NCBI GenBank assembly: GCA_964035545.1
Contig: OZ037765.1
Location: forward strand, 20,840,495-20,904,494
Origin: Bugula neritina
Lineage: Eukaryota > Bryozoa > Gymnolaemata > Cheilostomatida > Bugulidae
Direction: 5' to 3'
Length of the DNA stretch: 64,000 bases
Shown: positions 39,799-47,315 of the stretch, in pieces
How positions within the stretch are numbered: the stretch's first letter is position 1
How the letters are laid out: each line of letters opens with the position of its first letter
Translations under genes and position numbers: made by a program
Notes under the pieces: generated by a model
Told to the model about the DNA's origin: nothing
The model's database searches: none
What the model saw: only the letters and a program-made list of their open reading frames with translations

Positions 39799-39983
39799 GC
39801 AATACTCGTGACTCCTAGGTGACCCCTAGAGTCACTTGAGCACTCTGGCTTGAGTTTAAACACCTTTTAAATATGCTTTAATATAACTATAAGTTTTACT
39901 ATTGCGAAGGTGTGGGCCATGGTACTCTGTTCTGTGCTGATGAGGGAACAAATCCCGAAACAGCTGCTGTCCACAGATTGAGA
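39799..39983 (+). repeat. Hammerhead-bearing repeat, class 2, copy 1
   Basis: 185 bases that recur at 47131-47315 in the same orientation with few differences. It runs from CAATACTCGTGACTCCTAGG to CCACAGATTGAG and passes straight into (TA)n at its right end in both copies. It contains the hammerhead at 39931-39977. Confidence 0.85.
39931..39977 (+). ncRNA. Hammerhead ribozyme motif, class 2
   Basis: Stem I TCTGTG 39931-39936 pairs with CACAGA 39972-39977 (six pairs). Core CTGATGA is 39937-39943. Stem II GGGA 39944-39947 pairs with TCCC 39953-39956. GAAA is 39957-39960. Stem III is four pairs (A39960-T39970, C-G, A-T, G-C) with triloop CTG. The cleavage-site base is C39971, giving GTC, the commonest hammerhead cleavage triplet. 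Every conserved core position is present. Confidence 0.88.
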
Positions 39984-40094
39984 TATATATATATATATAT
40001 ATATATATATATATATATATATATATATATATATATATATATATATATATATATATATATATATATATATATATATATATATATATATATATAT
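39984..40094. repeat. (TA)n tract
   Basis: About 110 bases of perfect TA between class 2 copy 1 and the inverted class 1 repeat. Confidence 0.96.
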
Positions 40095-40194
40095 AGTAAA
40101 ATGAGTGTTTATAAAACGTTACTAGAGTGCTCTATAGAAATAAATCTAGAGCATAAACATTAGAAGAAATAAAATGAGATTTGATTAATTTAAT

Positions 40195-40257
40195 GGCATT
40201 TATTACTAGTAGTTTCGTACACAAAAAACCGATGTGCACTCGTCAGATAAATTTGCC
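40195..40257 (-). ncRNA. Hammerhead ribozyme motif, class 1
   Basis: Minus-strand copy of the structure at 46860-46922, with intact CTGACGA and GAAA and the same stems; the stem II loop differs by a few bases. Confidence 0.8.
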
Positions 40258-40276
40258 ACTATGATTGCTTACAACT

Positions 40277-40489
40277 TGTTATAGTGGCACGCTGAGAGTT
40301 TAGCTAATGACAATAGCCTATCAGATACGTGAGCTATCGTGTTACTAAGAGTTGCCCTACCAGCCACCGTATAGCCGAGATAGCAACAAGCTAAGGCAGA
40401 TAAAACCCAGACAAACAGAGTGAATGGTCTCTTTCATCTGGCAGCTTTACCACTGGTAAGACATACTATTACGTTGTGGTAATCTAACA
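40277..40489 (+). repeat. 5' LTR of the gag-only element
   Basis: 213 bases; see the whole-element entry for identity and flanks. Confidence 0.93.
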
Positions 40490-40505
40490 TGGCGCAGTCA
40501 GCATT
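40490..40505 (+). promoter_or_regulatory. Primer binding site, tRNA-Ser-like
   Basis: TGGCGCAGTC directly follows the LTR. The first ten bases match the tRNA-Ser-type primer site used by insect 17.6/297-like elements, as I recall it; later bases do not. Confidence 0.5.
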
Positions 40506-40625
40506 TTAACGAACCTGCCAGTGAGAAACTCTTTCTGTCCTTACAACTATAGATGATAGATAAGTACTTTCTTCAATTTATCATTATCAGTTGCAAGTGT
40601 TTTGAATATAATATAATAATATAAG

Positions 40626-40945
40626 TGTAGTGTAGTGTAGTGCAGTGCAGTGCAGTGCAGTGCAGTGCAGTGCAGTGCAGTGCAGTGCAGCGCAGTGCAG
40701 CGCAGTGCAGCGCAGCGCAGGCAGCGCAGCGCAGCGCAGCGCAGCGCAGCGCAGCGCAGCGCAGTGCAGTGCAGTGCAGTGGAGTTGAGTGTAGTGGAGT
40801 GTAGTGCAGTGTTACTGTTGGTGCAGTGTTACTGTTGGTGCAGTGTTACTGGTGGTGCAGTGTTACTGGTGGTGCAGTGTTACTGTTGGTGCAGTGTTAT
40901 TGTTGGTGCAGTGTTATTGTTAGTGTAGTGTTATTGTTAGTGTAG
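40626..40945 (+). repeat. Pentanucleotide and 17-base tandem repeats in the element leader
   Basis: GTGTA, GTGCA and GCGCA pentamers (about 40626-40790) give way to a 17-base unit GCAGTGTTACTGTTGGT repeated about seven times. It lies between the primer site and the gag start, within the transcribed leader. The ORF across it is an artefact. Confidence 0.9.
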
Positions 40946-43846: not shown

Positions 43847-43858
43847 TGGAAGGGGGCA
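43847..43858 (+). promoter_or_regulatory. Polypurine tract of the gag-only element
   Basis: GGAAGGGGGCA abuts the 3' LTR. Confidence 0.7.
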
Positions 43859-44071
43859 TGTTATAGTGGCACGCTGAGAGTTTAGCTAATGACAATAGCC
43901 TATCAGATACGTGAGCTATCGTGTTAGTAAGAGTTGCCCTACCAGCCACCGTATAGCCGAGATAGCTACAAGCTAAGGCAGATAAAACCCAGACAAACAG
44001 AGTGAATGGTCTCTTTCATCTGGCAGCTTTATCACTGGTAAGACATACTATTACGTTGTGGTAATCTAACA
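43859..44071 (+). repeat. 3' LTR of the gag-only element
   Basis: 213 bases, three differences from the 5' LTR. Confidence 0.93.
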
Positions 44072-44076
44072 CAACT

Positions 44077-46859
44077 ATAAATAATGTAATACACAGTTGG
44101 TTTAAGGTCATACTTTTCATTTTCTGGCTCTTTGCCAGGTGCTTTATGTTCTATATGAACAATGTTCCACTGATCGCTCGAACAGGTTGAATGTCACAGG
44201 AACAAAAAAAATATGAAAAGATAAAGAAATTTATGTTCTCCAATATACTTTTTTATTTTTTTCAAAAGCCAATTCATGTTTAAGTTATAGCTTGTTGAAA
44301 AACATAGTCCCCCTTCCACATTCTTTTCAATTTATACGCTCCTGACTTGTTATTGTGTCTCAATATGCCTTGTATTTGAGTGCTTGTTAGTCTCGCTTCA
44401 CTAACTTTGCCTATACTTCACAAGTGCCAGTGCTGCTGGCTCAAAAGCTAAATGTTATAAACTGTCAGCTAAAACCCAATCTTGTATTCCTAGGTTGGTT
44501 GGCCTAAATAAAACAATAGTCAAATCATGATTTCATGTTTTAAAAATTTACTCTATTCTAACCTGCTGCCTAGCTAGTTCTATTTTTGATGTATAATTAC
44601 AAAATTTGTGATACATTTTTTTGGCATCCATGTGATTTATAAAATGCAGTAATGGTACTTATAATATTATATTATTATCATTATAATATATTATATAGTA
44701 CTATGTGTGTTTTTATTATACTGCATAATATCTATTTTATTATTGTTGTTGTGCAAACAAGTGCAATTAACCTAGTTTTCAAAATGTACCTCTAAATTAT
44801 CAGAATATCAGTTTAGATATTTTCATGCTTTGTAAGGTAAACCTAAAAAAAGAGGCTGTATTCCCAAAGTAAAGGGTGTTGAACTATGAACTATATTAGA
44901 TTAGCCACTCTGCTACCAAGTGCGTCAGTATAATATTATATGAATAGCTCTGATGCTTTGTCTCCGGTGGCTGGCTGCGATATGATAACTTGGCCAACTT
45001 CCAAGAGTTTAAAATTGGCGCAATTATTCAAGAGGTTACATACTGCACAGAGCTAGCAGTGATAGTAACCTTGCTATTGACAGTACTTATTACAACTGCC
45101 AGCATATAAGCTGCATTGTAGAATGCCGTTGGGGTAGGCTATTAAAACCAAATTCTGCTCTCTAATATACCTAAGACACAATGCAGCAACATAATTGTTC
45201 ATTTCATTTCATTTTACATTGCCACCCTTACATGAGCTGTGGGCTTCATAAAGATTCATATGATTAGAGATTTATGCTATAGGCTAGCTATGATGAAAAT
45301 AACACACCATTGTCAAAGTTAACTTCAAGTATGTTGTTTTCCAGAAACTCAGTAATGTCCATTTATCTCTCGCATACAAATACTTATGTAATAGCATACA
45401 GTTTAAGTTTTATTTTAGAGCACATCTGCAAACTCTACAATAAGAGCTTGCTTTACCAGTCTATTTCAGACCTGTTTTTGTAGCTAGTAATACGCAAGCT
45501 ACTTATTTTTAAACTTTTGGGTTATTTGTTCAAAACCATTAGCTTTGCTAGTAACCCGAGACTATTGCAACAGTTGACTGCTATCAACATGAATTGACAG
45601 CCTAATAATTATAACCCGTTTGCGCGCGAAATATTTATGTAATGATAGTCACTCATATAGTGCGCGTCTCATTTACGATGACTGCGTGGTCCAGAGGTTA
45701 GAGGCGTCAACGACGAGTTGGTTGGTCATGGTTCAACCCTGTTTTGTTGCAATTTTTTTTGTTAATTTATACAAATCCTACGCATGTATAATAAATATGG
45801 CTATAAGTGTAAAGTTTTTTTTTTAACTTTTGTTCAACAGTAAGACAACATACATGCATAATAATTAGATACTGAACGCTGGACTAAACCTTAAATTGAT
45901 CTTATAGAATACAATGTACTTAAAATAATCATATGTGAATTAGAGAAACTGAAAGTACACCTGCTGTGCTATAGACAGACCTTTACTGACAAGACTGCAA
46001 AGTGAAGTGATTTAGCTGAAATTAACTCTGCCAAACAAACAAAGAATTATGTTGTGCTAAGGCATTTTCAATATATTATTGTAACATAGTGAGATGATTC
46101 AGCTAAGTGCTAATGTAAAACAGGGAACATTATCTTGGCAGAAATCCAATAGATTGCCAATTTGTGCGAGAGGGTACTATATGTTATTGTGATAGCGCAG
46201 AGCGGCAAACGTACTAGGAATGTTATAATTAGTCACAGGAGCGTAGCTAGAACCACCATATGAAGAATTTAGAAAATTGCAGTGAAACTTGCAAAATGGT
46301 GTATGTTTTTACCAAATTGTGAAGAGCATAAACAGAATTTCAAAAAACAAAGAAAGTATATTAGAGAAAACATATCAAGGAATGTCAAGTTTAACTTTTA
46401 GACTTTATAAAATGAATCCCCTGTGCTACAGCAGTAGAACATGGAGGGTATAAAATTTTACTTATTATGCAACAACTTTCTCAGAAAATTTTTTATTGAA
46501 AAATTAAAAAAGTATATGAAAGAGGAATGCAAGAGCTATCTTTTCATGTAAAATTTGTTAATGTGAGACAAAAACTGTTCGAGCTATCCCCTGGAAACCG
46601 TTTATATATAACATAAAGCAGTGCTTGAATCTGGAAAGTAATGACCTTAAACTAACTGTGTATGTAAATATACACAGAATAAAGCTAGAAGATCAAAATA
46701 TAGCAAAGAGGTAGCATTGGAAGTAATTGGCTATGTTACAGCATTCTTGAGTAGAAATTTACTACTATGTCTGCATATAGATAAAAAGTCATTGATCTTC
46801 TAGCTTTATTCTGTGTATATTTACATATTACATTATTTATAGTTGTAAGCAATCATAGT
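44077..46859. other. Interior of the inverted-repeat element, no gene seen
   Basis: AT-rich. The stretch at about 44090-44130 is related, inverted, to 46636-46665, so the arms extend inward in pieces. 45680-45740 reads like a tRNA-derived fragment (GCGTGGTCCAGAGGTTAGAG … GGTTCAACCC). No reverse transcriptase or GIY-YIG motif found by eye. Confidence 0.5.
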
Positions 46860-46922
46860 GGCAAATTTATCTGACGAGTGCACATCGTTTTTTTGTGTAC
46901 GAAACTACTAGTAATAAATGCC
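46860..46922 (+). ncRNA. Hammerhead ribozyme motif, class 1
   Basis: Stem I 46860-46870 with 46914-46922; core CTGACGA 46871-46877; stem II GTGCAC 46878-46883 with GTGTAC 46895-46900; GAAA 46901-46904; stem III A46904-T46912, C-G, T-A with a triloop; cleavage-site A 46913. Confidence 0.84.
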
Positions 46923-46957
46923 ATTATATTAATCAAATCTCATTTTATTTCTTCTAA

Positions 46958-47043
46958 TATATATATATATATATATATATATATATATATATATATATAT
47001 ATATATATATATATATATATATATATATATATATATATATATA
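46958..47043. repeat. (TA)n tract
   Basis: Perfect TA bordering the right end of the inverted-repeat element. Confidence 0.96.
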
Positions 47044-47130
47044 TTACGCTCTCATTTAATGCTCAGCAATGTCATATTAAATGATTGAGCACTCTCACCA
47101 TGGTCACAAACTCAAGCTGCTAGCATTCTG

Positions 47131-47315
47131 CAATGCTCGTGACTCCTAGGTGACCCCTAGAGTTACTTGAGCACTCTGGCTTGAGTTTACACACCTTTTA
47201 AATATGCTTCAGTAAAACTATAAGTTTTACTATTGCGAAGGTGTGGGCCATGGTACTCTGTTCTGTGCTGATGAGGGGACAAATCTCGAAACAGCTGCTG
47301 TCCACAGATTGAGAT
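47131..47315 (+). repeat. Hammerhead-bearing repeat, class 2, copy 2
   Basis: Direct repeat of 39799-39983, about 7.3 kb away, again followed immediately by (TA)n (47314-47360). Confidence 0.85.
47262..47308 (+). ncRNA. Hammerhead ribozyme motif, class 2
   Basis: Same core and stems I and III as 39931-39977. Stem II is GGGG with TCTC (G-U pairs replace two Watson-Crick pairs). Cleavage-site base C47302. Confidence 0.85.

Follow-up and report, generated by a model that had tools for sequence, protein, structure and literature searches.

A retrozyme and a Penelope-like element of Bugula neritina with a probable common copying machinery

Why do two classes of hammerhead ribozyme lie within 7 kb of each other in the genome of Bugula neritina, and what copies the elements that carry them? 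Penelope-like elements (PLEs) have been proposed as the mobilisers of animal retrozymes, on the grounds that both carry hammerheads of type I, that both occur as tandem copies and that the two co-exist, according to the available parts of two papers (PMC7229834, PMC7761336). The window analyzed here is a stretch of 64,000 nt from contig OZ037765.1 of assembly GCA_964035545.1 (20,840,495 to 20,904,494, forward strand), and all evidence comes from this one genome. We consider it probable that two retroelements, a retrozyme and a PLE, share one copying machine at the locus.

A type I hammerhead core with three stems is present at six places in the window, as recognized by a descriptor combining the CTGANGA core, GAAA, NUH and stems I, II and III (matches at 39937, 47268, 46871 and 20022 on the plus strand, 40246 and 19987 on the minus strand); when the window was shuffled 100 times (first-order Markov), no match appeared. 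Class 1 (39931..39977 and 47262..47308, both plus) has stems I, II and III of 6, 4 and 3 pairs plus A-U, and class 2 (40195..40257, minus, and 46860..46922, plus, in the left and right arms of a PLE insert) has stems of 6, 7 and 2 pairs plus A-U. These four motifs, noticed earlier in a reading made from the letters alone (the sequence-only reading), are borne out, and the cleavage positions placed there agree with those given by the descriptor; two more class 2 motifs, 19938..19999 (minus) and 20010..20072 (plus), were absent from it. The Rfam scan of the whole window found no family at its gathering score, literally the outcome which that reading had held to count against itself, and a relaxed search of 39780-40300 (521 nt) listed 8 matches with 0 hammerheads among them. 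As a 71-nt stretch, class 2 (right-arm motif) scored 28.1 bits (E 1.1e-5) with RF00163 Hammerhead_1, the gathering score being 34, and class 1 (motif at 39931..39977) as a 58-nt stretch scored only 19.2 bits (E 0.13) with RF03152 RAGATH-1-hammerhead (gathering 56.3). Failure of the core to be conserved elsewhere in the genome, also named as a ground for doubt, was not seen: exact core words number 356 for class 1 and 207 for class 2, and reversed control words 0 for both. The proposed link to PLE and animal-retrozyme hammerheads proved correct. Minimal PLE hammerheads, in work of Cervera from 2014 and Lunse from 2017, cited in PMC7761336, reportedly have a core of type I and a stem III that is very short; the Bugula motifs share both traits, with new sequences, and are likened to them by description only.

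Class 1 belongs to a non-LTR animal retrozyme with a tandem unit of 271 nt, each with a type I hammerhead. It is non-coding and non-autonomous (unit GC 0.435, longest open frame in the doubled unit 45 aa), mostly non-inverted, and inserts at (TA)n like the PLE. Among the best-matching copies, from which the table of ends was drawn, the 3' end is the same in 23 of 24 stretches and complete units were seen in 10 of 22. Copy 1 in the window (39795..39983, plus; L001) is 5'-truncated, covers unit positions 83 to 3 and ends in (TA)n, and copy 2 (47045..47313, plus; L051) is a single complete unit.

Class 2 represents the pLTR end of a PLE coding for reverse transcriptase (RT). The RT is encoded by other genomic copies of this PLE in open frames of 714 aa, which leaves class 1 alone as non-autonomous by design; the earlier suggestion of a non-autonomous element therefore holds for class 1 and fails for class 2, which terminates an autonomous PLE with an RT frame that is open at other places in the genome. 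The protein has RT sequence motifs, and its predicted structure (mean pLDDT 75, pTM 0.46) was matched by Foldseek to a retron RT (best E 3.3e-5) and TERT (8.6e-5), over residues 1-235 only. Residues resembling the GIY-YIG motif are conserved over 34 sequences and point, by motif only, to a putative GIY-YIG nuclease; no such domain showed up in the fold comparison, which covered residues 1-235. A Pfam scan of the PLE protein gave no named domain, GIY-YIG included, the Pfam GIY-YIG profile matches one place in the genome, and Pfam and NCBIfam together give no convincing domain in the protein or the scanned homologues. The PDB sequence search returned a single match (E 0.91), the viral-contig scan with the protein returned 9 stretches but no relative, and viral-contig scans for either hammerhead found nothing. 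The idea that class 2 might be a DNA transposon with TIRs was rejected because its arms are truncated copies of the RT-coding unit.

PLE inserts are head-to-head pairs within (TA)n, and family B also shows tandem units; inverted or tandem pLTRs with an optional tail, the arrangement expected of PLEs, are found in class 2. The tail is 64 nt long, many inserts are just two inverted pLTR pieces, and many PLE cDNAs reach to a point 15-16 nt upstream of the hammerhead core and stop there. The region 40.1-47.0 kb is a single small inverted insert of this kind with a retrozyme on either side. It consists of a PLE-A pair (40096..46956), tailed at the left end and tail-less at the right, split by an LTR retrotransposon (40277..44071, plus; 213-bp LTRs identical at 210/213, TSD CAACT) and a TIR element with TA on both flanks (44092..46660), and is joined to retrozyme copies 1 and 2 by (TA)n tracts at 39983..40095 and 46957..47044. 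A compact PLE-A pair without interruption lies between (TA)n tracts at 19839..20105; the pairs, the joining tracts and the TIR element carry no strand. Among 36 PLE pairs picked with the 17-base core word as sole criterion, from 100 of 207 sites listed, 34 combine a tailed with a tail-less end, 2 are ambiguous and 0 symmetric. The count was restricted to these pairs because the compact loci L021-L050 were drawn by a query that itself had one tailed and one tail-less end; the compact-pair junction table holds best-matching copies, and 21 core-selected compact pairs were tabulated separately.

The feature that connects the two elements is a pair of RNA hairpins at the start of the insert. In the PLE families the stretch from hammerhead to ORF start holds hairpins built as GCUC-stem-UU bulge-GAGC-WCUYU (two wherever both could be seen), and inserts end 4-8 nt 5' of them; in PLE-A, about 5-8 nt separate the tail-less end from hairpin 1 on its 3' side, and likewise the tailed end from hairpin 2. 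The retrozyme has two hairpins of the same design 3' of its hammerhead; the first of them comes 3-6 nt 3' of the insert end, and both appear in the free fold of the unit. A hairpin stands upstream in 5/5 further regions with a PLE start codon, the other 4 of these 9 regions (L085, L086, L088, L091) being without a PLE start codon. The apical helix requires the 2-nt bulge, its stems vary in sequence with the shape kept, and covariation is 0.583 versus 0.147 after shuffling; pairs with both sides changed are not exceptionally many, as 67 of 500 shuffles reached their count.

Models trained on PLE hairpins alone find those of the retrozyme; the training hairpins were selected visually for GCTC..GAGC, once this pattern had been noticed between PLE-A and the retrozyme. 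Retrozyme hairpin 1 of copy 2 (47048..47097, plus) was found at E 0.0038 by model R1 and 0.0088 by R2, trained without family A, and hairpin 2 (47135..47179, plus) at E 0.026 and 0.072. Hairpin 2 of copy 1 (39804..39848, plus), in which the first G is changed to A, scored E 0.42 with R1 and was not found by R2 in the window. The PLE-A tail hairpin, which is hairpin 1 (40122..40152, minus), scored E 7.5e-5 with R1, trained on this very sequence, and 0.013 with R2; that of the compact pair (19865..19895, minus) was found by both models. With a covariance model from PLE families B-D only, the retrozyme and PLE-A hairpins came top in the 64-kb window, the next match having E 3.9. Weak scores were obtained for the internal units of L005, for L013 and for L020 (E 0.23-0.27), and PLE-A hairpin 1 of L083 had E 0.94 with R2. 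Direct sequence comparison of the retrozyme with the PLE-A tail was rejected as evidence: the one shared 9-mer is equalled by about 11% of shuffled tails and about 7% of shuffled retrozymes, so the hairpin claim rests on structure and the families added later. No description of hairpins shared by retrozymes and PLEs was found in the literature searched, which did not extend to Cervera 2014 and Lunse 2017, so earlier notice is possible.

We read the hairpins as a putative PLE recognition and priming signal that is mimicked by the retrozyme. The PLE protein would bind the paired hairpins, and from a cut (TA)n end reverse transcription would start immediately 5' of them. A protein dimer may hold two hairpins and prime one cDNA off each target strand, which would yield head-to-head inserts tailed at one end and tail-less at the other; the stops 15-16 nt upstream of the hammerhead core may mark the 5' end of the RNA. 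The retrozyme RNA, presumably cut by its own hammerhead and probably circular, would be copied by the PLE protein in one or more rounds because it mimics the PLE signal. Towards the fuller claim, that paired GCUC/UU-bulge/GAGC-WCUYU hairpins are the PLE priming signal, one per protomer and strand, explaining the tail and the inverted pLTRs, and that animal retrozymes are PLE parasites with the signal on circular RNA, we lean without great confidence. With a covarying hairpin pair shared at the insert start, the partnership becomes directly testable with one purified protein and two RNAs; the pair also offers a simple reason for inverted PLE inserts with a one-sided tail.

A single composite element bearing both hammerhead classes would fit their presence inside 7 kb around common (TA)n tracts. 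It is very improbable given the separate copies of each class: most fetched copies of one class are without the other nearby (exceptions include L008, L041, L046 and L068), and in lists of 100 sites per class only the two PLE sites of this window lie less than 1.5 kb from a retrozyme site (0.36 expected). The locus holds two different elements, the retrozyme and the PLE, rather than a lone non-autonomous element with ribozymes, as the sequence-only reading suggested. The retrozyme might also be derived from a PLE pLTR and have inherited hairpins with another role (promoter, RNA stability), while another retrotransposon moves it; the order of hammerhead then hairpins is the same in both elements, and the (TA)n tract is common, so that target sharing could be chance. 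This origin seems unlikely to us, since PLE-A, PLE-B and retrozyme inserts all end a few nt 5' of the hairpins, and the shape of the apical stems is kept despite differing sequence.

Head-to-head pairs could instead be made by fold-back self-priming of a single cDNA, as proposed for rotifer PLEs in the available parts of PMC3846280. Palindromic junctions are consistent with it, as are the variants shared by arms of the same insert (0.93 versus 0.69 permuted; 24 elements, 3 sites) and some distant loci with identical junctions, which also mean that a number of the compact pairs may have been copied from one another. An arm copied from an arm should, however, give equal ends, and these are equal in 0 of 34 clear pairs, which leaves fold-back a doubtful explanation. 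For the preferred reading of a shared machine we counted the Anolis PLE, in which both strands are cut and extended and the tail is delimited by two adjacent RT start sites; against it we counted that RT begins there in an AC-rich stem loop inside the ORF, and that the strands showed no difference in start site (available parts of PMC11167929).

Known PLEs, as far as the available parts of PMC3846280 and PMC11167929 describe them, likewise have an RT protein with a GIY-YIG-like C-terminus (here by motif), inverted pLTRs, palindromic junctions, a one-sided tail, a pLTR hammerhead and AT-rich targets. The Bugula PLE differs from them in its tail of 64 rather than about 30-40 nt, in inserts ending 5' of hairpins that precede the ORF, and in the many inserts made of only two inverted pLTR pieces. 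Animal non-LTR retrozymes (available parts of Cervera & de la Pena 2020, PMC7229834) likewise have a type I hammerhead per tandem unit of 150-450 bp, GC below 50%, no ORF and no LTR; those parts mention neither (TA)n targeting, as seen in the Bugula retrozyme, nor its PLE-type pair of hairpins where the insert starts. Plant LTR retrozymes (available parts of PMC4918200 and PMC7761336) are likewise non-coding hammerhead passengers with ends resembling those of an autonomous element, the shared signal there being LTR ends and a tRNA primer site, whereas in Bugula it is a pair of RNA hairpins.

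Class 1 is a retrozyme, and class 2 is a Penelope-like element (PLE) that carries its hammerhead in the pLTR. All four hammerhead motifs described in the sequence-only reading are present as described, and a descriptor encoding the core and the stems, which had no match in 100 Markov shuffles of the window, detected another head-to-head pair at 19987 (minus) and 20022 (plus). Covariance models recognized the motifs only below threshold: no Rfam family exceeded gathering in the window and a relaxed search of 521 bases did not find a hammerhead; in short stretches class 2 matched Hammerhead_1 (28.1 bits, E 1.1e-5, gathering 34) and class 1 marginally matched RAGATH-1 (19.2 bits, E 0.13). 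Both classes recur in the 215.8 Mb assembly, with 207 occurrences of a 17-base class 2 core word, 356 of a 21-base class 1 word and none of the reversed controls. All results come from this one genome and copy counts cover the copies examined.

In the window an inverted pair of family PLE-A forms one insert (40096-46956), interrupted by a nested LTR retrotransposon (40277-44071, TSD CAACT) and a nested TIR element (44092-46660, TA duplication), and flanked on each side by a retrozyme with (TA)n in between. An uninterrupted compact PLE-A pair lies at 19839-20105. In longer class 2 copies the arms code for a protein with reverse transcriptase (RT) motifs and a GIY-YIG-like C-terminus, and its predicted structure is an RT fold (mean pLDDT 75). 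A Pfam search of this protein detected no domain, so the nuclease is a candidate assigned by its motifs; the sole genome place matched by the Pfam GIY-YIG model was L081 (G000:C1:24630658-24630858), hence that model misses the PLE copies here. Among 7995 candidates scored, 4315 proteins were homologous at E <=0.001; of the 120 listed one was 91% identical and the rest 49-55%, a few of them named from Stylophora, Oculina and Watersipora. Ninety scored genome matches included 714-aa open frames in four PLE-A copies and further PLE families at ~44-53% identity.

The retrozyme copies stand in arrays with a period of 271 nt. In 23 of 24 aligned stretches the 3' end is common, ~12-15 nt past the cleavage site and followed by a TA tract; the remaining one, a fragment at 77% identity, lacks the tract. 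Of the 5' ends 22 were readable, and ten of these fall no more than 4 nt from the unit boundary, giving a whole number of monomers. The unit (GC 0.435) has no frame longer than 45 aa, even when doubled, and its fold, which includes both hairpins considered below, has an energy far under that of shuffles (z -5.87). The array and non-coding unit agree with animal non-LTR retrozymes as portrayed in PMC7229834, which proposes PLEs as retrozyme mobilisers from shared type I hammerheads, tandem copies and co-existence; PMC7761336 makes largely the same proposal.

PLE inserts are targeted to TA runs: among 31 compact pairs taken from the similarity search, 25 adjoin a run at both ends, five at one and one at neither, versus 1.6% of 16,000 random flank positions. 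For 100 of the 207 class 2 core sites, neighbours within 8 kb comprised 36 '-+', 3 '+-', 2 '++' and 1 '--' pairs. The ends of the '-+' pairs are of two types, tailed and tail-less, and were unequal in 34, symmetric in none and undecided in two (compact, 19 of 21, two with one end unreadable; longer, 15/15). Independent choice would make at most half unequal (0.5^34 ~6e-11 with loci taken as independent, which is doubtful because some loci have identical junctions). Such junctions recur at distant loci among the 21 core-selected compact pairs, one shared by four (L113, L114, L116, L118) and another by two (L095, L096); these could be stops that recur, or some of the compact pairs could have been copied from one another. 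Among 32 compact pairs picked by similarity, 21/32 tailed and 21/32 tail-less arms end 15-16 nt 5' of the core, on or beside the A of a TCA; in the core-selected set (n=21) 24/42 arms end there and nine at 8-9 nt. We take this peak to mark the 5' end of the RNA, uncertain by 1-2 nt because of the palindromes.

In rotifer PLEs, according to PMC3846280, one of the two inverted pLTRs carries a tail. For the Anolis PLE, PMC11167929 reports that both strands are cut and extended and that two adjacent internal start sites delimit the tail, and it saw no difference in start site between the strands; a mixed-orientation population would likewise yield no strand difference.

The PLE-A tail and the retrozyme have one 9-mer in common, which alone is not significant. 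Hairpins of the form GCUC-stem-UU bulge-GAGC-WCUYU then emerged upstream of the start codon, another one in PLE-A and a pair in PLE-B. In nine more PLE regions retrieved, all five with such a codon (L084, L087, L089, L090, L092; families B-E) have the hairpin upstream of it; L087 and L092 also have the first hairpin, and the model detected one in L089. Apical helix lengths summed over 12 hairpins for bulge sizes 0 to 5 were 4, 2, 52, 1, 3 and 12; the bulge is 2 nt in 11 (exception C1) and UU in eight of these, and A2 and C2 have just two apical pairs. In six PLE hairpins covariation was 0.583 vs 0.147 in shuffles (0/500 as high) and <=0.225 with slid partners; both sides had changed in 4/8 pairs, a level reached by 67/500 shuffles.

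A covariance model built from six PLE hairpins (R1), applied to the window and 20 loci (100,297 bases), recovered the five held-out PLE hairpins (E 0.0042-0.032) and the two retrozyme hairpins (in most cases E 0.0036 and 0.0065); scores were weak in L005, where three inner units gave 0.23, and in retrozyme copy 1 of the window (0.42). Its five window matches with E <=5 all fall inside the described PLE-A or retrozyme elements, and in an unfiltered search of one retrozyme locus the two hairpins ranked 1 and 2 (2.1e-4, 4e-4; next 0.52). Model R2, built without family A, placed retrozyme hairpin 1 first in the window (0.0088), followed by both PLE-A tails (0.013) and then retrozyme hairpin 2 (0.072), the next being 3.9; PLE-A hairpin 1 in L083 scored weakly (E 0.94). 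Because the pattern was already suspected when the training hairpins were selected by eye, the models have not seen the retrozyme but are not independent of the idea. In 37 further loci most of 66 matches with E <0.5 lie inside PLE or retrozyme elements; those outside include L045 2736-2772, L007 168-188 and L004 440-470. A pattern composed after the PLE families were known gave five window sites, four in elements and one at 16068 (minus), which neither model recovered at E 5; of 20,000 shuffled retrozymes 0.2% had at least one site and none had two.

With the insert end lying 5', the distance to the next GCUC is ~5-8 nt in PLE-A, 4-7 in tailed PLE-B and 3-6 in the retrozyme, given as ranges because bases are shared with the TA tract. 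Each hairpin is probably recognized by the PLE protein, which would use a cut (TA)n end to prime directly 5' of the hairpin, the two hairpins serving the two target strands. Variants are common to both arms of one insert at 0.93 vs 0.69 permuted, therefore the arms usually derive from a single RNA or from similar ones. Fold-back self-priming, as a source of the head-to-head pairs, would account for these common variants too, but it leaves the unequal insert ends unexplained and we consider it improbable. Under priming beside the two hairpins, retrozymes would use the same PLE route, a partnership that we infer. The 5' ends of retrozyme inserts L001, L004 and L015, which fall in unit positions 78-83 and immediately 5' of hairpin 2, look as if copying had halted at that hairpin. 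In L083 a retrozyme fragment (1123-1170 and flank) lies beside an open PLE-A copy, next to its 5' region.

Elsewhere in the window a second LTR element (22229-27578; 300-nt direct repeats, 95% identical) has a CCHC gag-like frame (22782-23561) with a zinc knuckle above the Pfam cut-off; the nested LTR element has a gag-like frame at 41080-42291, whose zinc knuckle is under that cut-off. Frames at 49405-53543 (minus) look by eye like gag and pol pieces of another LTR element. An 82-nt repeat, 88% identical and with many TGCCATTTTTACC-like words, occurs at 30462-30543 and 47592-47673, and long perfect (CA)n tracts occupy 35171-35564 and 39229-39677.
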